A DNA stretch of 38,073 nt, from contig NZ_MBKP01000046.1 in NCBI RefSeq assembly GCF_002243045.1, positions 1 through 38,073 of the forward strand, written 5' to 3'. This document shows positions 523 to 38,073 of the stretch, piece after piece. Position 1 is the stretch's first letter; each line of letters begins with the position of its first letter. Under the pieces are notes generated by a model. It ran no database searches. It saw only the letters and a list, made by a program, of their open reading frames with translations, and was not told the origin of the DNA. The DNA is from Methanolobus psychrotolerans (lineage in GTDB: Archaea > Halobacteriota > Methanosarcinia > Methanosarcinales > Methanosarcinaceae). A program made the position numbers and the translations under genes.

Positions 523-1950
523 ATGATAGCAAAAAAACAAATCAAAAACATAATGACATTTTTAATATGTCTTATTCTTGCGGCGGCTTTTATAGTCCCT
601 GCAAGTGCAGGTACAGCAGTACCAGGTACAATTGCTGAAAAAACAGTATTTAGAACAACAAGTTTTGAAGTCCATGCTGAACCTTTGTCCACAAGCCTTT
701 CACCAATTGTGACTGAAACAGGTAAGATCAGCATTTCTGTTGACGGACTTGGCACCGATGGATCTGGAATTATCCAGGTAGAAAAACCTGAAGGTGCAAC
801 CGTAAGATCTGCATACATGGCCGGTGCTTCCCTCTGGGGTAATTATCCGATAGCTGATGGTCAGATCAAGATCGATGGTCAGGATGTTAACTGGGACTAC
901 TTCGTGAACAAATACACTTACAACCACTGGGCAGATGTCACTTCTCTTGTTCAGACAAAGATCGATGCTGCTCCGGCAGGAAGAGTTGATTTCACAGTGA
1001 CCGAAGGTGGCAATCCATATTACATCGATGGTACTATACTGGTAGTCATTTTCGATGACCCTAACCAGACCAGTGACAACACGATCGTACTGCTCTTTGG
1101 TGCACAGGATATCAATGGTGACACATTCAACCTGCTTCTTGCAGACCCTATTGATAAAAGCGTTCCGGACCTGAGCTTTGACATGGGACTTGGCATATCA
1201 TACAGTTACCAGTCAGGTTCAGCTCAATACAGCATAGTCAATGTGAACGGTCTGAGACTGACCTCTACAGCAGGTGGTGAAGATGACGGTTATTCTGCAA
1301 ATGGCGGACTAATTACAGTAGGTGGTCTGGATGACAGCAATGAAAATCCTGCAAATCCTACAGCTCCATACCTAGATAGTTACAATAACCCTCGTATGGA
1401 TGATGAATTGTATGACATCCTTCCATTCGTAGATGATGGGGACAATACAATAAGCGTTTTCACATCAAATCCTTCAAACGATGACAACATATTCTTTGCC
1501 TACTTCGACCTCAAATCAACTGTGGCTGTAGTAGGAGAAGGAATAATTCTCAGCCCTGCATCTGCAACCAACCCGGTGGGGACCTATCACACCGTAACAG
1601 CAACTGTTCAGGATGATACTGGTGCTCCTATAGAGGCAGCAGAAGTCTCCTTCAAGATAGAAACCGGCCCACATCAGGGACTTACGGATTCAGCAAACAC
1701 TGACAGTAATGGTGAGGCAACATTCACATATATGGGTACTGATGAAGGAACCGATACTATTGTTGCAAGCTTTGTTGACAGCAATGAGAAAATCGTTTAC
1801 TCCAACACAGTTACAAAAACCTGGGAAGTTGAAGAAAATGATGACGACGATGAGCCATCTGAGGAGATACCTGAGTTCCCAACCATCGCACTTCCAATAG
1901 TAGCGATACTTGGACTTGCCTTTATCTTCAACAGAAGGAAAGAGGAGTAA
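523..1950 (+). CDS. Secreted PEF-CTERM surface protein with Ig-like domain
   Basis: A 475-residue exported protein. Residues 1-30 form a signal peptide (positive start, hydrophobic core, cleavage after PASA). The body, about 60-340, is a beta-rich, Asp/Asn-rich region without motifs I can assign. Residues about 345-430 look like an invasin/Big_1-type Ig fold (AVVGEGIILSPAS, then TYHTVTATVQDDTGAPIEAA). A short acidic linker (EENDDDDEPSEE) leads to IPEFPTIALP, a hydrophobic helix and the basic tail NRRKEE. That is the archaeal PEF-CTERM sorting signal, which an archaeosortase cleaves to anchor proteins on the cell surface. The start is the first ATG, with a good Shine-Dalgarno just upstream. 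It stands alone, with its own TATA box and terminator. The ligand or structural role is unknown. Confidence 0.88.
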   Translation: MIAKKQIKNIMTFLICLILAAAFIVPASAGTAVPGTIAEKTVFRTTSFEVHAEPLSTSLSPIVTETGKISISVDGLGTDGSGIIQVEKPEGATVRSAYMAGASLWGNYPIADGQIKIDGQDVNWDYFVNKYTYNHWADVTSLVQTKIDAAPAGRVDFTVTEGGNPYYIDGTILVVIFDDPNQTSDNTIVLLFGAQDINGDTFNLLLADPIDKSVPDLSFDMGLGISYSYQSGSAQYSIVNVNGLRLTSTAGGEDDGYSANGGLITVGGLDDSNENPANPTAPYLDSYNNPRMDDELYDILPFVDDGDNTISVFTSNPSNDDNIFFAYFDLKSTVAVVGEGIILSPASATNPVGTYHTVTATVQDDTGAPIEAAEVSFKIETGPHQGLTDSANTDSNGEATFTYMGTDEGTDTIVASFVDSNEKIVYSNTVTKTWEVEENDDDDEPSEEIPEFPTIALPIVAILGLAFIFNRRKEE

Positions 1951-16759: not shown

Positions 16760-16787
16760 TATTTTTGTCTCTATCTTTTTTTGATAT

Positions 16788-16895
16788 CTTGTTCTTAGTT
16801 TTGTTTGTATTCTTGTTCTTAGTTTTGTTTGTATTCTTGTTCTTAGTTTTGTTTGTATTCTTGTTCTTAGTTTTGTTTGTATTCTTGTTTTCTTG
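16788..16895. repeat. 24-bp tandem repeat, 4 copies plus part, spanning a stop codon
   Basis: A 24-bp unit begins at 16788, 16812, 16836 and 16860, with a partial fifth copy from 16884. The four copies look identical by eye. The unit reads CTTGTTCTTAG followed by TTTTGTTTGTATT. On the minus strand it encodes E-Y-K-Q-N-stop-E-Q, and the stop of the hybrid kinase (16869-16867) lies in the fourth copy. Because 24 is a multiple of three, gain or loss of copies would not change the protein end. Confidence 0.95.
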
Positions 16896-19800
16896 AAGAC
16901 GACAATTCTTCTACATTATTGATACAATGCAAAAGGTCTTTTTTGCTGAATATACCTTTTTGCATTACAAAGGACACATCCCTGTCAAGTTGCTTTTTCT
17001 CATGGTCTTCAAGATCCTTTGCCGTACAGACTATGATGGGTATATCAATGGTTTCAGGATGCTTTTTCAATTCATTTATAACATCAAAACCACTTACTTT
17101 TGGCATCATCAGATCAAGGATTATAATGTCAGGAGAGAAACTCAATGCTTTTTCAATTCCATCCTTGCCGTTGGATACACCCATTACATCGTAACCTTCA
17201 GTTAAAAGCATGGATTCCATAAGTTCAAGAACTGATGGTTCATCATCAATTACAAGAACGTTAACATGCTCAAATGAACGTTTTTTCTTCAACCTTCCCA
17301 GCGAGGAAAGAAGCGCTTCCCTGTCAACAGGCTTAACAAAATAATCAAACGCTCCCCAGATGATCCCGAGATCTTTTTCATCAAGAATGGATACTATCAC
17401 CACAGGTATATCTTCTGTCCCTTTTTCCTGCTTGAGATTTTTAAGTATGTCCCATCCATCCATATCTGACATCATTATGTCAAGCGTGATGGCAAAGGGC
17501 TGTAGCTCTTTGGCAAGCTCAAGTGCTTCCTTTCCATTTGCAGCAAACTTCACATCATAACCTGCATCATTCAAAGTTACGGAAAGTATTTCCTGTGACC
17601 TCTTTTCATCTTCTACTATCAGTATAAGGGGTCTTATAACCCATTTTCCTGAGTCTGCTATTGAAGTATCCACAACATACTCTGAGGACTCTTCTTCAGG
17701 AATAACATACCAATTTCCGTGCTCTGAACCGGCTTCATCTGCAGAAGGTTCAAACTCAACAGGAAGTTCAAATATGAATGATGAGCCTTTACCAGATTCA
17801 CTTTCAACCCAGATTCTTCCATTATGCTGTTCTATGAAACTCCTGACAAGAACAAGACCAAGACCTGTGCCTTCATACATCCTGCAATTTGACGAATCGA
17901 TCTGGGTGAATGTTTTGAAGAGTTTTTTCTGGTCCTCTTGAGAAATACCAATACCCGTATCTGTTACTTCAACACGGACATGATCATCTTTCTTTGTGAC
18001 AGAAATAATGATCTGCCCACCATTATCGGTGAACTTGATAGCGTTGCTCAGGAGATTATAGATTATCTGTTTGAATTTTCCTTTATCAGCTTTAATAGTA
18101 ATAATGTCAGGAACTAGCTTAATTATAAGTTTGATATCTTTCTTAAAAGCCAGAGGGGAGATGACAGACTTGATCCCATCCAGTGAACCTCCTATATCAA
18201 ATTCATCGATATTGAGGACCATTTTCCCCGCTTCGATCTTGGATAGATCAAGGATATCATTGATCAAATTCAGCAGATGTCTGCCACTATTGGAGATGTT
18301 GCCTACATACCTTTTCTGTTTATCATTCAGTGAACCAAATGTTCCTTCAAGCAGTATATCTGAAAAACCTATGACCGAATTTAATGGAGTTCGGAGTTCA
18401 TGACTCATATTAGCCAGGAAATCACTTTTTGTCCTGCTTGCATCTTCAGCAGCTTTCTTTGCCGCAATAAGAGCGTTTTGAGCTTCTTTTCGTTCAGATA
18501 TATCTGCAAGAATGCCTGCCATATGCAATGGTTTACCATCTTCTGAGTACTCAACAACCTTTCCCTTGTTGAAAACCCACCTGTATTTCCCATCTTTTCC
18601 CCTTATACGATATTCGCATTCCGCAGTTTCAGAAACGCCTTTACGTACATTCTGCAATTCACTTATTGCAACATGAACATCATCCGGATGAATTAATTCC
18701 CTCATCCATTCAAATCTGGGGGATATTTCATCTACAGGATGACCGATTATATCTGCATATCTGGTATTGAAAATCAGGATATCATCCTGAAGATTCACAT
18801 CCCAGGTACCTTCGTTGCTGCCCTCAAGAACACGTTTCAGGTGCAGTTCACTCTTCCTAAGGGATTGTTCCATTTTTCTGCGTTTAAGTACCATAGCCAT
18901 GAGAGTTGAAAACATTTGAAGAGTTTCAAAATCATCATTCTCCCATTCCCTAGTTCCATCCACGTCATCAAGACCTACAAATCCCACAAGATGACCTTCG
19001 ATGAATACCGGGAGTACAAGAACTGATTTTATATCCTGCATCTCAAGTATTTCTTTTTCAACAGAAGCTTCTGAAGGAAGGGCTGAAACATCAGTTACAT
19101 TTATCATTTCATCGTTCTGTAGTCTGGACAACCACCATGGAAGCATATCAGATGGCAGATCCTGAAGGTTCTCTTTTTGAGCTTCAACTCCTTCTGAACA
19201 CCATTCGTGCGTATTACTCATCAGAGTTTCGTCTTTGCTAAACAGGAAAAGATAACAACGGTTTGCACCACATAGCGTTCCTATTTCAGACAGAGCCATG
19301 TTTATTGCTTCATCAACATCTCCCGGATATGTGAACATTGATGAAACATCCAGCATTGTATTTTCTAATGAATGCTTTCTTTTCAGGATTTTTTCTGTTT
19401 CTGTTTTGGCGATGATCTCATTGCCAAGTTTCTTGTTGAGATCGTGCACGTAGAAAATATTGACAGCAGCAATGACAAGCAGCAGCATTATACCAGCAAG
19501 AAGGGATTTTAACCGCATAATCGTATCTAATAAAGCCGGTGGCTCTTCGAACATACCAACTTTAAGCTCCATCATGCACGCTTCAACGACATTGTAATCC
19601 TGAGAAACGGTCCAGCCTGAAATGTCACCAAAGCTACCGGAATCTGACGAATTGAAGGACATACTGAGAAGAGATATGGATACTCTTTCGGAAATAGATC
19701 TTGACGTTTCTCTTGTCTTTGAAAATGCCCAGCCCGGATATATTCTTGTACTTACAAGCAGGGGATAGTTATCATATTTTTGCAAGTGGATAACTTTGAA

Positions 19801-20484
19801 ATCACTTATATTGATCTTTCCTTCCATATGCATTTGTTCAAGAACTCCCGAAGGAACGGTGCCAGCATCAAAGTCACCGTCCTTTACAGAATAAACAATT
19901 GCTTCAAGCTCACTGCTAAATTCCAGTGCTTCAAAATCCGTCTCCGGAACAATTCGATGTTCAATGAACTCCCTTTTTGCAATCCACCAGCCTTCAAAGA
20001 AAGGAGACTCCGGTGCCAGAAATGAGAGACCGATGATATCATCCAGATTTTGAATATCTACCCTGTCAGCTTTTGTAAATATAACAGAACCCACATTGTT
20101 CAAAGAAGAGTTTTTAGTATAATCAGGAGGTAGATACGCAACCGTTTTCATTGTTGCTATACTGGTGATCCCGTGGGGTCTTGTAAGCATCACATAAGTT
20201 GCCGGATCAGCAATGAGAAAATCTATATTTTCAGCCATTAACTGATTTTCTATGGCACTCTTATCCATTGGAACTATTTCAAATGTGAATATAGGAATAT
20301 CCTCTGATAAGTACTCAGAAACAATGGTCCATTTAGCCAGTGTTTCTTCTTCGGACCCTTCTATAAGAACACCAATCCTTACAGTATCTTCAGTTTGAGA
20401 GTGAACGGTTCCACTACAAAATATAATGAAAATCAATACCCATACCATCATAACTGCAGATAACGATCTTCTTGTCATTTTCAT
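16867..20484 (-). CDS. Membrane hybrid histidine kinase with PhnD-like extracellular sensor and two receivers
   Basis: A 1205-residue protein. Residues 1-29 are a signal peptide. Residues about 33-290 form a PhnD-like periplasmic binding domain (TVRIGVLIEG, then ENIDFLIADPATYVMLT), as in the bacterial tetrathionate sensor TtrS. A membrane helix (about 328-347) is followed by GAF (370-545), PAS (550-665), HisKA with His695 (MSHELRTP), HATPase (DTGIGIS, GTGLGL), receiver 1 with Asp1002 and receiver 2 with Asp1124. Receiver 1 reads LDIMMSDMDG, with Ser in place of the usual Pro after the acceptor loop. The ATG overlaps the upstream kinase stop as ATGA and has GAGG nearby, so translation is coupled. 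It likely senses a small extracellular anion or solute; phosphonate, sulfur oxyanions and others are possible. Confidence 0.92.
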   Translation of the reverse strand: MKMTRRSLSAVMMVWVLIFIIFCSGTVHSQTEDTVRIGVLIEGSEEETLAKWTIVSEYLSEDIPIFTFEIVPMDKSAIENQLMAENIDFLIADPATYVMLTRPHGITSIATMKTVAYLPPDYTKNSSLNNVGSVIFTKADRVDIQNLDDIIGLSFLAPESPFFEGWWIAKREFIEHRIVPETDFEALEFSSELEAIVYSVKDGDFDAGTVPSGVLEQMHMEGKINISDFKVIHLQKYDNYPLLVSTRIYPGWAFSKTRETSRSISERVSISLLSMSFNSSDSGSFGDISGWTVSQDYNVVEACMMELKVGMFEEPPALLDTIMRLKSLLAGIMLLLVIAAVNIFYVHDLNKKLGNEIIAKTETEKILKRKHSLENTMLDVSSMFTYPGDVDEAINMALSEIGTLCGANRCYLFLFSKDETLMSNTHEWCSEGVEAQKENLQDLPSDMLPWWLSRLQNDEMINVTDVSALPSEASVEKEILEMQDIKSVLVLPVFIEGHLVGFVGLDDVDGTREWENDDFETLQMFSTLMAMVLKRRKMEQSLRKSELHLKRVLEGSNEGTWDVNLQDDILIFNTRYADIIGHPVDEISPRFEWMRELIHPDDVHVAISELQNVRKGVSETAECEYRIRGKDGKYRWVFNKGKVVEYSEDGKPLHMAGILADISERKEAQNALIAAKKAAEDASRTKSDFLANMSHELRTPLNSVIGFSDILLEGTFGSLNDKQKRYVGNISNSGRHLLNLINDILDLSKIEAGKMVLNIDEFDIGGSLDGIKSVISPLAFKKDIKLIIKLVPDIITIKADKGKFKQIIYNLLSNAIKFTDNGGQIIISVTKKDDHVRVEVTDTGIGISQEDQKKLFKTFTQIDSSNCRMYEGTGLGLVLVRSFIEQHNGRIWVESESGKGSSFIFELPVEFEPSADEAGSEHGNWYVIPEEESSEYVVDTSIADSGKWVIRPLILIVEDEKRSQEILSVTLNDAGYDVKFAANGKEALELAKELQPFAITLDIMMSDMDGWDILKNLKQEKGTEDIPVVIVSILDEKDLGIIWGAFDYFVKPVDREALLSSLGRLKKKRSFEHVNVLVIDDEPSVLELMESMLLTEGYDVMGVSNGKDGIEKALSFSPDIIILDLMMPKVSGFDVINELKKHPETIDIPIIVCTAKDLEDHEKKQLDRDVSFVMQKGIFSKKDLLHCINNVEELSSSRKQEYKQN

Positions 20485-33423: not shown

Positions 33424-33495
33424 CCCAAGTTATCACCTTAACATACGTTATCACCTTAACATACGTTATCACCTTAACCCAAGTTATTACCTCGA
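33424..33495. repeat. 18-bp tandem repeat, four units
   Basis: Four adjoining 18-bp units start at 33424, 33442, 33460 and 33478. The core is GTTATCACCTTAA; units two and three are identical (CATACGTTATCACCTTAA), and units one and four begin CCCAAGTTAT. They lie in the non-coding gap between the candidate small RNA and the end of rfcL. The remainder of the gap to 33658 is AT-rich without visible genes. Confidence 0.9.
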
Positions 33496-33658: not shown

Positions 33659-35137
33659 TCAAAAATCAAACAAAGTCTTCTGTGGCTTTTTTATAGGCTC
33701 TTTTTTAGAGAAAGAGGACCTTTCTGAAATAATAGAGTCCTGATTTGAAACCCGTAATTTATCCAGGCTCAACTGAGAAGGATCCTTCTTAGAAGTGACC
33801 CTTTCTACAAAAAAGACAGGTTCGTCCGAAGGAAAGACATTCTGGCGCATTTCCTGGGCTTCATCATAAATAGATTGAAGCTTTTTTGTGACCTTCTTAG
33901 CACCCACCATATGAAGCATTTCATCCATATCAAGCCCAAGTGTTGCAACAACATCTGCGGCATAAGTATCCGTTTCCAAAAGTCTTGAGTAAAGCCCTGC
34001 AACCTCAAGCCGGGAATAACGCATTGATTCATTGCAATGAGTACCAACCTTCACAGCAATATTGTTCCTCATATCCTTTTTAGCACGCATCTGTCCCATC
34101 TTGCGCCAGAGGGAAGGAGGCTGGTATTTTACAAAACCACCTCGCATGCGGGAATTTGAAACAACAGTCCCACCCGTCATAAGCATGCCTGCATAACGCC
34201 ACATACGATAATTCTGACGCCTGCGCACACGCCCCAGAAAACGATCAGCCCGTGAAAGATAAGAATATGCCTGAATAATGTCATTAGTCAGCGGTTCTTC
34301 GCCCTTTCCAGTGTATTGGTATGGAAGATTTTCATCCACCCAGTGGATCAGATCCTCTGGCGTTTCATCGAGATTATAAGTAGCTTCAAGAGCAGATGAA
34401 ACATCTTTCCCCTTAAATATCCTCCCCACTACTTTGAAAATGGACTCTTTAGTATCCCTTTCAGATGTGGAAATATCCTCTACATAGATTTCTGTACGAC
34501 CCATGGCAACTGCCTGCAGATCATTGACAGCACTTCTAAAATCACCATCTGCAACTTCAGCTATTTTTTCAAGGACACCGATACCACATACCAGCCCCTC
34601 CTGCTGTGCAATCTTTTTGAGTGCCGGGATCATAGAACGCGACTGTACGGAAGCAAACTTAAGCTCTAAACACAATGAACGCAGTGAAGAAGATATACCA
34701 TAAAGATCGTTAGCAATAAGCACAAGAGGTTGATTTGTTTTTTTGACAATATCGATAATTGCACGTGACCCTCCCCGATCACTATTACCATGCAGATTAT
34801 CAGCTTCATCGAGTATGATCAGCCTTTTTGCAGAAGCACCAGTCAGAGTTTGCATCCGGGAGGCAGAACCTGCCACTTTTTCGATTGCACTTGCGGTTCT
34901 CTGATCACTTGCATTAAGTTCTATAACTTCCCAGTCCATATCACTTGCAAGTGCATGTGCAGAAGATGTCTTACCTATACCTGCCGGACCATGGAGCAGT
35001 AAGGCTTTTACTTCAGGCGTACCATGGACCCACTGCTCACCCCATTTTTTTAGAGCATCTATCACCGTTTTATGTCCGACAACATCATCAAGTATCCTTG
35101 GCCGGTATTTCTCTGCCCATTCCATCTGCACAGTCAT
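33659..35137 (-). CDS. rfcL: Replication factor C large subunit
   Basis: A 492-residue AAA+ clamp-loader subunit that helps load PCNA onto primed DNA. WAEKYRPRILDDVVGH opens the family, Walker A is HGPAGIGKTSSA, Walker B is LIILDEADN, and sensor 1 follows in LVLIANDLYG. The C-terminus ends QKTLFDF, a PIP box that binds PCNA. The frame is open to 35539, but that part is antisense to mtxX. ATG 35137 (MTVQMEWAEKYRP) is the natural start, with GGGT upstream; an ATG four codons later is also possible. It is divergent from mtxX, with 88 bases between. Confidence 0.96.
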   Translation of the reverse strand: MTVQMEWAEKYRPRILDDVVGHKTVIDALKKWGEQWVHGTPEVKALLLHGPAGIGKTSSAHALASDMDWEVIELNASDQRTASAIEKVAGSASRMQTLTGASAKRLIILDEADNLHGNSDRGGSRAIIDIVKKTNQPLVLIANDLYGISSSLRSLCLELKFASVQSRSMIPALKKIAQQEGLVCGIGVLEKIAEVADGDFRSAVNDLQAVAMGRTEIYVEDISTSERDTKESIFKVVGRIFKGKDVSSALEATYNLDETPEDLIHWVDENLPYQYTGKGEEPLTNDIIQAYSYLSRADRFLGRVRRRQNYRMWRYAGMLMTGGTVVSNSRMRGGFVKYQPPSLWRKMGQMRAKKDMRNNIAVKVGTHCNESMRYSRLEVAGLYSRLLETDTYAADVVATLGLDMDEMLHMVGAKKVTKKLQSIYDEAQEMRQNVFPSDEPVFFVERVTSKKDPSQLSLDKLRVSNQDSIISERSSFSKKEPIKKPQKTLFDF

Positions 35138-35225
35138 GTTATTTACCCAATATTCAGGAAAAGTAATTAATGTTTGCGTCACTTTGTTTGTTCTGATTGA
35201 TATTATTAATGGTAGGTATCTTTCC

Positions 35226-36083
35226 ATGGAATCAAAAAGTACAGAAAACCTCCTTGGCCTGATAGAGAAAAGGGCATTGAAAAACAGGGCGAGAGTTGCC
35301 ATAGGAGTACGCAACCCCAACTCCAAAATGCTTAAGAGTGCCAGAGATGCACATGAAGCAGGATATGCACATGTGCTTCTTGTAGGTAACAAAAAAGAGA
35401 TAGAAGAAATAGGAACTGAACTTGAGATAATAGGAACCAATGACCCGGAAAGAACACTTGGAGACCTGTTAAAATCCAGATACGTTGATGCTGCAGTAAG
35501 AGGAACTGCCGGAGCCTCAGGAACGTTATCACACCTCAAAAAGATACTAAATCAGGAAAGCCTTCACCGGATAGCCTTATTGCAGACAAATGAAGGAGCT
35601 CCTTTTTTTATTGCACCTGTAGGCATAGATGAAGGGAACGAACTTGCCGATAAAATCGAATTCATAAAACTTGGGGTTGAATATATTCGCAGGTTCAACA
35701 TCGAACCGGTCGTCGGCATTCTTTCCGGAGGAAGACTGGGAGATCTTGGTCGTAACCCACGTGTAGACCAGACACTTGCAGAAGGAGACTTCATTGTTAA
35801 TAGAATCAGAGAGCAGGGGATCGATGCAAAGCATTACACGATACTGATAGAAGATGCAATAAAGGAAGCAAATTTCATACTCGCACCAGACGGTATATCA
35901 GGCAACCTGATATTCAGGACACTCGTATTCCTTGGTGGGGGAGACGGACTTGGCGCACCCATATTAATGGACGATTATGTATTTGTCGACACATCAAGAG
36001 TGGGAGGACATTATACCAAAGCCATAATGCTTGCAAGTGCACTTGTAGAAAAACATGATACACAAGCAATTAATAATGAATAA
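35226..36083 (+). CDS. mtxX: MtxX, methanogen marker protein 4 (phosphotransacetylase-like)
   Basis: A 285-residue protein of the phosphate acetyl/butyryl transferase fold, annotated in methanogens as a possible methyltransferase subunit (MtxX); its real reaction is unknown. Visible features: RVAIGVRNPNSKMLKSAR, the HVLLVGNKKEI strand, and in the C-terminal half VVGILSGGRLGDLGRNPRVD and FLGGGDGLGAPILMDD. The family is confined to methanogens. The frame is open to 35136, but the ATG at 35226, after an AGGT-type site, opens the conserved part. It stands alone, divergent from rfcL. Confidence 0.88.
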   Translation: MESKSTENLLGLIEKRALKNRARVAIGVRNPNSKMLKSARDAHEAGYAHVLLVGNKKEIEEIGTELEIIGTNDPERTLGDLLKSRYVDAAVRGTAGASGTLSHLKKILNQESLHRIALLQTNEGAPFFIAPVGIDEGNELADKIEFIKLGVEYIRRFNIEPVVGILSGGRLGDLGRNPRVDQTLAEGDFIVNRIREQGIDAKHYTILIEDAIKEANFILAPDGISGNLIFRTLVFLGGGDGLGAPILMDDYVFVDTSRVGGHYTKAIMLASALVEKHDTQAINNE

Positions 36084-36189
36084 CAACAATTATTATATCA
36101 TAGATAACACCATCTAATTTTAATAAAATCATTTTTATTTCAAAAAATGCCTTTTAACAAATGTATTACTGCAACAGGGAATGAGCGAT

Positions 36190-36954
36190 ATGGAAGCTGT
36201 ACTGATAAAAGCAAAAACAATCTCTTCTGCATGGTCCCAATTGATCCATGAAATATATGAAAAAGGAGAGGAACACAAACCCGACTATAGGACGATGACA
36301 AGGAGAGTACACGCCACTATATATATAGAGGATGTGGATAACAGGCAGATCAACCCTGCCGTGCCCTTTGGAGAGAATCTTATAAAAAAGTACAAGGAAG
36401 AGCTCACAGAAGAGTATGCAGACTGGTATGTTTCACTTTCAGATGACGATAAGAGAAAATTTGACTACTGCTACGCCAAGCAGTTGTTCCGGTATGGGGA
36501 AACAGCATACAATACGCTACATGCAAATGTGAGTAACCTGCGTCCTGGCTCCAGAAGACATGTTGGCGTACTATGGGAGAATGAAATTCACATCCCTAAA
36601 TACGAGGACCAGCCATGCTGGATAGCCTACAAAATTGAACTTTTGAATGATACACATGTCCGAATATATATATTGTATCGCTCATGGGATGCATTCGGAG
36701 GATTCCCTGCCAACATTCCAGCCATCGTAGAAGGATTCAAAAAGGTGTTCTGTGAACAAAACCTTCCATTTGTGATAGAGTCACTGATAGCTACAGGATG
36801 GGACACACACATTTATGAAGCTGACCTTCAGGCAGTGGAAAAGATATTCAGGAATAACGAATTGTGCCCCATATGCAAGTGCATAACACCAAAACATTCA
36901 TTCATCCCTACAACCAGAGGCAAAGCCTGCCCCGAGTGTAAGAAATCCATGTGA
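36190..36954 (+). CDS. Thymidylate synthase (ThyA)-fold protein with C-terminal zinc ribbon
   Basis: About 254 residues. ThyA landmarks appear in order: the arginine pair in PGSRRHVGVLW (binding dUMP phosphate in ThyA), the nucleophile-like Cys in EDQPCWIAYKIEL (ThyA has PC-H there), and RSWDAFGGFPANIP, matching the ThyA RS-x-D...G-x-P-x-N-I block. ThyA uses methylenetetrahydrofolate; in methanogens methylenetetrahydromethanopterin would be the C1 donor. The last 35 residues add CPIC and CPEC, a likely zinc ribbon not found in standard ThyA. The first ATG (36181) directly abuts the GGGA site, so ATG 36190, nine bases from AGGGA, is chosen; the Cys is residue 143 from this start. It may be the thymidylate synthase or a related pyrimidine hydroxymethylase. 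Confidence 0.8.
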   Translation: MEAVLIKAKTISSAWSQLIHEIYEKGEEHKPDYRTMTRRVHATIYIEDVDNRQINPAVPFGENLIKKYKEELTEEYADWYVSLSDDDKRKFDYCYAKQLFRYGETAYNTLHANVSNLRPGSRRHVGVLWENEIHIPKYEDQPCWIAYKIELLNDTHVRIYILYRSWDAFGGFPANIPAIVEGFKKVFCEQNLPFVIESLIATGWDTHIYEADLQAVEKIFRNNELCPICKCITPKHSFIPTTRGKACPECKKSM

Positions 36955-37095
36955 ATTGACACACACATGCTTGATATTTAACATTTCATTATTCCCTCTT
37001 TTTTTCTTTCTTTCTTTCTTTCCTCTGTTTGACCGGATTTTCATACACATAACCAATACAATCGTACTTAAAATATAATTCCAATAGATATATAT
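36955..37095 (+). terminator. Pyrimidine tract after the ThyA-like gene
   Basis: A run of T with regularly spaced C (TTTC units) extends from 36997 to 37023, with no stem before it. T-rich tracts commonly end transcription in archaea. Nothing else is visible up to the next promoter. Confidence 0.45.
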
Positions 37096-37123
37096 GTATG
37101 ATATATACATACATCAGTATGAT
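37096..37123 (+). promoter_or_regulatory. Promoter and possible operator of the RHH gene
   Basis: GTATG (37096-37100) and CATAC (37108-37112) form an inverted repeat around ATATATAC (37101-37108), the likely TATA box. GTATGAT occurs at 37096 and again at 37117, 21 bases apart, two helical turns. RHH proteins often bind such repeats and control their own gene, so this is a plausible self-regulatory site. The Shine-Dalgarno GGGAG is at 37145-37149. Confidence 0.45.
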
Positions 37124-37156: not shown

Positions 37157-38073
37157 ATGAAAAGACTTACCATAAGCATGTCGGATGAGCTTTTTGATAA
37201 ACTGGACTTAATAGAGAATAAGAGCCTGTTCATCAGAAAACTTATCGAAAGGGAGCTTGACATTTTAGACAATGCCCCTGAAGACAATATTAGTGTACCA
37301 TGGACTGAAAGAGTTGCAATCCTTGTTGATGACGTTAGCACAATATTCAGCAGACTGGAACTTATTGAAAGAAAGTTCTCCGGAGTTAATAACACTTTTG
37401 AAAATACACAAACTCCCCCTGACAAGATCAATATACAAATACCCATAGTAGATAACAAAATAATCAATGATGATCCAATGCTCCTGATAGCCAATGATGA
37501 AGAAGAAGCTTATGGCATCATTTCCATAGAAAATGGAAACACAGAAACAATACTCCTGCCAGATACACAGTCTGTAACTAACGAAAAGGTAGAACTGATC
37601 AAACCTGTAACAACAAATAATAAACAAATCGAACAGGAATTTGCTGCACATGCACAGGAAATGATTGTCGATAATATCCCCGGACAGAAAATTGGGCCTG
37701 AAAAAATGGTACAATACGATCCCGAAGAAAACATTCATGAAATAAAGCTCTCGAAGATGATATCAGAGAAAATAAGTAAACCCGAACAGGAAGATGTTGC
37801 ATTTGGATTACCAGGACAAGAACCCCAGATGCAAGTACCTGACAAGGTAACAGAAGAAAAAACATTTGCAATACCGGAACTAAAGCTACCGGAGCAGGAA
37901 AAACAGGAGACAGAATTGGTAATGCCGGAACTAAAGCTACCGGAGCAGGAAAAACAGGAGACAGAATTGGTAATGCCGGAACTAAAGCTACCGGAGCAGA
38001 CAAAACAGGACGCGGAATTTGTAATGCCGGAACTAAAGCTACCGGAGCAGACAAAACAGGAGACAGAATTTGT
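37157..38073 (+). CDS. Ribbon-helix-helix protein with repeat-built C-terminal tail (partial)
   Basis: Open from ATG 37157 to the window edge, 305 codons, with no stop. Residues 1-35 read MKRLTISMSDELFDKLDLIE and then SLFIRKLIERELD, a strand and two helices of the CopG/RHH DNA-binding type. Residues about 50-75 may be a short coiled coil (VDDVSTIFSRLELIERKF). Residues about 80-235 are acidic, low in hydrophobics and probably disordered. From residue 239 a 17-residue unit, (I/M)PELKLPEQ(E/T)KQ(E/D)(T/A)E(L/F)V, recurs four times to the edge. The ribosome site GGGAG is seven bases before the ATG. A DNA-binding head on a long repetitive tail is unusual for RHH regulators. I do not recognise the full architecture. 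Confidence 0.8.
   Translation, partial: MKRLTISMSDELFDKLDLIENKSLFIRKLIERELDILDNAPEDNISVPWTERVAILVDDVSTIFSRLELIERKFSGVNNTFENTQTPPDKINIQIPIVDNKIINDDPMLLIANDEEEAYGIISIENGNTETILLPDTQSVTNEKVELIKPVTTNNKQIEQEFAAHAQEMIVDNIPGQKIGPEKMVQYDPEENIHEIKLSKMISEKISKPEQEDVAFGLPGQEPQMQVPDKVTEEKTFAIPELKLPEQEKQETELVMPELKLPEQEKQETELVMPELKLPEQTKQDAEFVMPELKLPEQTKQETEF
37871..38073 (+). repeat. 51-bp in-frame tandem repeat
   Basis: Units begin at 37871, 37922, 37973 and 38024, the last cut by the window. The first 29 or so bases after the first codon (CCGGAACTAAAGCTACCGGA and beyond) are unchanged in all copies; the second halves differ at a few codons (GAA/ACA, GAG/GAC, TTG/TTT), showing two sub-types. Each encodes 17 residues. 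Confidence 0.95.

Follow-up and report, generated by a model that had tools for sequence, protein, structure and literature searches.

An RHH-like protein of Methanolobus psychrotolerans with a repeat-bearing linker and, at its C-terminus, a conserved domain of predicted winged-helix fold

The stretch of DNA analysed (the window) comprises 38,073 nucleotides of Methanolobus psychrotolerans and is the entire contig C69 of a 3.16-Mb genome in 106 contigs. At its end, an ORF of 305 aa (37157-38071, plus strand) stays open to the contig end, with no stop codon within the window. Its N-terminus is ribbon-helix-helix (RHH)-like (MKRLTISMSDELFDKLDLIENKSLFIRKLIERELD) and is followed by an acidic low-complexity middle and a tandem array that runs off the window, as given in the preliminary description. 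The gene and its surroundings comprise the following features:

35220..36083, plus strand: mtxX (methanogenesis marker 4), upstream neighbour; TIGR03270 E 3.2e-72, over the cut-off
36181..36954, plus strand: divergent thymidylate synthase with a zinc-ribbon-like end, upstream neighbour; Pfam Thymidylat_synt E 3.1e-10; TIGR03283 74.6 bits, under the cut-off of 174.55
37088..37095, plus strand: TATA-like element of the gene's promoter, ATATATAT, immediately 5' of the dyad; called by eye; the TATATAT run recurs in Methanolobus promoters
37096..37121, plus strand: putative operator GTATG-N7-CATAC-N4-GTATG (GTATG at 37096, CATAC at 37108, GTATG at 37117)
37157..37270, plus strand: RHH-like head, residues 1-38 (alignment A1; profile A7 has NikR RHH as its top PDB match, E 0.02)
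37301..37405, plus strand: predicted long helix, likely coiled coil, residues 49-83 (AlphaFold2, mean pLDDT 92 for residues 51-60 and 96 for 61-70)
37406..37870, plus strand: acidic linker, predicted disordered (pLDDT mostly below 50 from residue 92)
37736..37771, plus strand: HEIKLSKMISEK, corresponding to a (K/N)LSE-type motif that 15 other Methanolobus proteins carry; modelled at low confidence as a short helix (197-204)
37871..38073, plus strand: 17-residue (51-bp) tandem repeats, with further units on contig C73

Elsewhere in the window, an 18-bp tandem repeat of about 3 copies (33426-33492) lies between a small Lrp-like ORF, recognized by eye, and the gene of the replication factor C large subunit. 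The rfcL ORF (33659-35539) measures 626 aa from its first start, compared to about 492-530 aa in those relatives whose gene is complete, and its true start is probably internal. A perfect 24-bp tandem repeat of 4.3 copies (16787-16889) covers the 3' end of a large ORF for a hybrid histidine kinase (16867-20484, minus strand; kinase assigned by eye) and continues past it.

Contig C73 of the same genome starts within the same array, and its bases 1-671 provide more repeat units, linker, a conserved C-terminal segment of 66 residues and a stop at base 671. An exact end overlap of C69 and C73 was looked for and not found; C73 appears to be the continuation of C69, and it gave the extension that had been proposed earlier as a check. 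The repeats had been taken for the tail of the protein. This had to be revised: the protein does not stop with the repeats but goes on to a conserved domain with a modelled winged-helix (wH) fold, which makes the repeats a linker. The contig break had hidden half of the protein, and 4 of the 27 Methanolobus genomes are cut or gapped within the linker.

A query of 234 residues of the window protein found matches in 29 of 60 relatives, namely one in each of the 27 Methanolobus (g1) genomes, and in G029 and G031, which represent two of ten other genera of the family with one genome each. Database records with the gene belong to Methanolobus (profundi, vulcani, bombayensis, halotolerans and others), Methanomethylovorans, one Methanococcoides record and further Methanosarcinaceae. 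Of the 28 relatives recovered first, 25 were complete, and L023, L028 and L035 were cut by a gap or contig end. Among 199 genomes of the class, the head profile A1 was found in 62 and the tail profile A2 in 54. The tail profile occurred in g1, g3, g4, g6, g8, g23 and g24 (7 of 37 genera sampled) and was absent from the g7 and g11 genomes of this sample, which we take to be Methanosarcina and a neighbour. Within g3, genome G140 matched neither profile and G188 only that of the head. L117, from another family of the same class, is a compact member of 165 residues (head E 4.7e-11, tail E 8.1e-7). A search of the phylum (294 genomes) added five weak matches. A 58-aa frame of genome G019 gives a further, weak match to the head profile (E 0.01).

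In total, 37 ORFs were tallied: two Methanolobus tail pieces and 35 others. Head and tail profiles fell on one ORF in 23 of the 35 ORFs outside Methanolobus at E≤0.01, and in 20 at 1e-5. The remainder were the contig-cut L113, L114, L137 and L138, the split L118 (two ORFs), the head-only L133-L136 and L142, and L139. The head-only ORFs were not counted as members, and L139 was dropped as unrelated. In G078 (L118, 5754-7052) the family gene is split into a head ORF and a tail ORF; the chromosome contig of G028 (L122, 1-1329) starts exactly at the ATG of the family gene. Complete Methanolobus proteins (n=23) had 410-714 aa and compact relatives 165-204 aa; the length variation that had been expected between strains was thus borne out between species.

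A match to a known, characterized family was also looked for, and the window protein gave none in Pfam at E values up to 1. The 25 full relatives had scattered Pfam matches, mostly to coiled-coil or low-complexity models (best DUF1720, E 5.6e-7; DUF7310, E 4.3e-6 with 27.6 bits against a cut-off of 40), and their best NCBIfam match had an E value of 2.6e-4. No curated family model concerning head or tail passed its cut-off. A literature search, in which subscription papers could be missed, found no paper on this protein among the titles and abstract openings listed. The protein is an undescribed variant of RHH-like DNA-binding proteins, with a tethered second domain.

The head alignment A1 had 17 invariant columns in 29 rows, and the RHH pattern (short N-terminal strand, helix A, turn, helix B) is present in the head sequence. 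When the widened profile A7 was compared to PDB sequences, the RHH domain of NikR was the best match and aligned over the whole head with an E value of 0.02, which alone is not significant; the RHH-like assignment made earlier agrees with this. Profile A1 gave mainly chance coiled-coil matches in the PDB. None of the members scanned singly passed the cut-off of an RHH model (RHH_5, E 0.12 in L117), and the only RHH-type match among the 25 relatives was the NikR model in seven of them, with E values of 0.095 or worse. PF01402 matched one other gene of the own genome and not the family gene. Compared by profile, the head and the RHH_1 genes of the relatives showed only a weak similarity, in an alignment that included some wrong-strand rows. 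AlphaFold2 modelled the window protein, as a monomer of what would be a dimer fold, with an unbroken helix 8-39 in place of an RHH fold, a helix 49-83 and disorder thereafter (mean pLDDT 51.7). The compact member L160 (229 aa, 22 rows), also modelled as a monomer, had helices 10-16, 22-35 and 41-66 and no strand in the head, with pLDDT 54-74 in the head block; overall (mean pLDDT 66.8, pTM 0.32), confidence was low up to about residue 165, followed by the winged helix. The head is probably DNA-binding, and it may form a true RHH dimer that binds the dyad of its own promoter.

Of the 27 Methanolobus promoters, 24 carry this dyad, GTATG-N6/7-CATAC, as do all four promoters of g4; it follows a TATA-rich run and lies 52-75 bases 5' of the start. 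The upstream GTATGAT repeats pointed out previously are present and form part of a conserved putative operator. The summed chance expectation was 0.004 of 27 (simple pair-block shuffle of 110-base upstream stretches); the 24 cases are not 24 independent events, because related promoters share descent. The exact triple site was found in 10 of 27 Methanolobus and 4 of 4 g4 promoters, and 3 of 27 Methanolobus promoters had no exact dyad. No dyad was found in g23 (5 promoters, one with only 30 bases upstream), g6 (2), g3 (8, one without upstream sequence), g8 (4 of 7 loci examined) or L117, and the single g24 promoter had only CATAC-N4-GTATG. The MKRLTIS strand is retained in g23 and g6 despite their dyad-less promoters. 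The L028 promoter (upstream of 8286) carries extra alternating GTATG/CATAC half-sites.

With up to one mismatch allowed, the triple site occurred in the own genome only at the family gene (reversed control, 1). In 23 Methanolobus genomes it was found at the family promoter in 13 and elsewhere at 9 places, compared to 12 for the reversed control; there is therefore no surplus of other triple sites. A regulon was considered and rejected, as GTATGN7CATAC occurred at 5 places in the own genome and its reversed control at 3. The dyad would serve repression, and the gene probably switches itself down; the dyad provides a concrete putative operator to test.

The array at 37864-38073 had a period of 51, 4.1 copies, 92% matches and a score of 343. 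Units of the type (I/M)PELKLPEQ begin at residues 239, 256, 273 and 290, and the seven complete units (three in the window, four on C73) were 84-100% identical in DNA (mean 91%). In 19 of 27 Methanolobus proteins, that of the window included, (M/I/L)P(E/D/N)(L/F/M/I/V) motifs were spaced 17 residues apart at least three times; the other eight had 0-6 such motifs without a 17-residue array. Elsewhere, spacings of 16-17 (g4), 18 (g24) and 31 residues (g23) were found in some members only, and by the pattern used g3, g6, g8 and L117 had none. In 13 genomes with at least four 17-residue units, copies were on average 81-99% identical within a genome and 65-73% identical to the best unit elsewhere. 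The arrays therefore turn over separately; the repeat expansion surmised from near-identical copies is in line with this. Head and tail are conserved, and the linker is mostly acidic, predicted to be disordered and very variable; in 11 proteins it had 10-25% D+E, 1-12% K+R and 2-26% P. Its length, calculated as the protein minus 85 and 66 residues, ranged from about 14 in L117 to about 560 in L033. With near-constant ends and a linker varied in length by tandem duplication, the family offers a natural series and a test case for disordered linkers in DNA-bound proteins.

The 17-residue repeats could be neutral filler from slippage, with only head and tail being of importance. This is a possible, if doubtful, explanation: species differ in the number and type of their repeats, the array copies of one genome resemble one another, and L049, L116, g3, g8 and L117 lack repeats by the pattern used. 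It is opposed by the excess of (I/M/L)P(E/D/N)L-like motifs over shuffles, in different repeats, in most Methanolobus proteins (4 in the window protein compared to a mean of 0.4 in shuffles). The excess was also seen in L048, L115 and L138 (g4), L107 and L108 (g23) and g24, whereas L109, L110 and L112 (g23) and L111 and L137 (g4) were at or near chance.

The tail alignment had 11 invariant columns in 26 rows. The L160 model followed the winged-helix order alpha-beta-alpha-alpha-beta-beta (helices 168-176, 186-193 and 199-211; strands 183-185, 215-220 and 223-228), with a pLDDT of 91-94 for residues 181-229 and 81 for residues 171-180. The best structural matches were MCM5 wH chains (Z 6.8-8.1) and the wH of Pyrococcus abyssi RPA2 (Z 6.4-7.2), with a Z of 7-8 being in the range of common folds. 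The RPA2 matches (at best Z 7.2 over 63 residues) had 21-23% identity, compared to 8-17% for most other structural rows. A Foldseek search gave no matches at E values up to 0.001, and profile A2 found nothing better than E 0.16 among PDB sequences. Of the 26 tails, 11 had a sub-threshold Pfam match to MCM5_C (lowest E 0.0029) and 8 a match to DUF5055 (lowest E 3.1e-4); other families matched 1-3 tails each. The tail as an MCM wH was rejected: the C-terminal regions of 29 MCMs of the family (rows chosen by motif) showed no similarity to it (hhalign probability below 1%).

Helix alpha-3 of the tail is acidic (mean net charge -2.3 in 26 tails), and loop/beta-1 (mean charge +2.6) and alpha-2 (+1.1) are basic. 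The P. abyssi RPA2 wH has primase and PolD as its binding partners; the surface that it turns to primase is negative, and its flexible linker is acidic (PMC11686378). Because alpha-3 of the tail is acidic, and by analogy with the tethered wH of RPA2, the tail would more probably dock a protein than read DNA; this is the weakest step of the reading given below. The wH may instead bind DNA through basic loop/beta-1 and alpha-2. A bridging or nucleoid-type protein, in which RHH and wH both bind DNA and the linker sets the distance between the held segments, could be imagined from these basic parts, and because the flexible linker joins two folds that are both of a commonly DNA-binding kind. It is considered unlikely, since alpha-3, the usual recognition helix, is acidic, compact relatives make do with a very short linker, and ten of ten mtx loci of four other genera are without a head or tail match.

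In 26 of 26 Methanolobus loci the gene follows the divergent thymidylate synthase, itself located after mtxX where the contig reaches. In Methanolobus and g23, this thymidylate synthase with its zinc-ribbon-like end occupies the mtxA-mtxH place of other genera. Upstream sequence was present in 22 loci of g3, g4, g6, g8, g24 and L117, and in all 22 an MtrA/MtrH-type gene precedes the family gene (names from L117). When genes of at least 80 aa are considered, the one that follows is a convergent ilvD in 22 of the 24 Methanolobus loci whose downstream sequence is present, and in 20 of 27 loci elsewhere. A downstream partner had also been sought: on C73, the family gene is followed first by a small zinc-finger gene in convergent orientation (676-849, minus strand; Prok-RING_2, 25.9 bits against a cut-off of 22.4) and then by convergent ilvD. 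The convergent zinc-finger pattern follows the gene in 36 of 53 loci (Methanolobus, g4, g6, g23, g24) and was not found beside it in g3, g8 and L117; a stricter pattern was also found in L111 and in five of ten mtx loci without the family gene. As a dedicated partner the zinc-finger gene was rejected; it is not tied to the family gene, because it is present in 48 of 60 relatives, including genomes without the family gene. Small co-directional open frames (at least 30 aa), which may or may not be genes, start within 200 bases in 40 of 46 loci.

mtxXAH has been described as an operon of Methanosarcinales (PMC4632066). The conserved position behind MtrA/MtrH-type genes would fit a regulator of this adjacent methyltransferase operon or of other upstream genes. 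Such a role is improbable, as 8 of 8 Methanolobus and 2 of 2 g23 genomes tested keep the gene with one MtrH-type gene only (46-48% identity to the mtxH query; G029, G031 and G085 have two), and all ten g2, g5, g7 and g11 loci keep mtxX and mtxH without the family gene. In these ten loci no ORF of at least 60 aa had a head or tail match, and an mtxA-like ORF is present (short in L171, L173 and L176). Some genera thus have the gene but lack mtxAH, and others have mtxAH but lack the gene; a joint function is not shown by their linkage.

The computed anatomy of the relatives, their conservation and synteny, the repeat turnover and the conserved promoter dyad are best explained by a self-repressing RHH dimer with a wH tail that docks a protein on a variable tether, a reading given a probability of about 0.4. 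Being chromosomal, the protein would use its N-terminal RHH dimer, together with the adjoining coiled coil, to bind the alternating half-sites beside the TATA-like element of its own gene, and binding would lower its own expression. The long, mostly acidic disordered linker would run from the DNA-bound head to the C-terminal wH domain, which may dock a protein as the tethered wH of archaeal RPA does. In Methanolobus, the linker would have been stretched by independent duplication of the 17-residue (I/M)P(E/D)L motif, and the repeats would act as a tether, perhaps also as repeated binding motifs. A bolder and improbable version is a DNA-anchored hub of Methanosarcinaceae, in which an RPA2/MCM-like wH on a length-tunable tether near the bound DNA would recruit the machinery of replication or transcription; the (I/M)P(E/D)L motifs would provide additional docking sites, changing rapidly in number as arrays expand. 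That the protein is the antitoxin of a toxin-antitoxin pair that gained a repeat tail is highly improbable: antitoxins typically have RHH heads, and autoregulation of the gene is conceivable, but the gene occurs in one copy per genome with conserved synteny, the next gene on C73 is convergent, member L160 has no match in phage or plasmid records, and the tail is a folded domain.

The self-repressing dimer with a tethered wH can be compared with four known systems. RHH antitoxins of the ParD type have disordered tails; in the family, however, no toxin gene was seen, and a much longer linker leads into a folded domain. The C-terminal wH of MCM (MCM5_C, PF21933) was the most frequent Pfam match of the tails, and MCM5 chains top the structural list, but the own tail reached 16.3 bits against a cut-off of 27.2. 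The archaeal RPA2 wH (PDB 9f27, 9f26, 9f29, 9f2a) resembles the tail as a C-terminal wH on an acidic flexible tether; it differs in that the N-terminal part of the family protein is RHH-like, and the sequence-profile match of the tail to PDB chains is not significant. With NikR and CopG-type regulators, the head aligns to the NikR RHH domain over its whole length and in the same register, with a stretch between the helices that is five or six residues shorter. The NikR RHH is followed by a metal-binding domain, whereas the family protein continues with a long linker and a wH.
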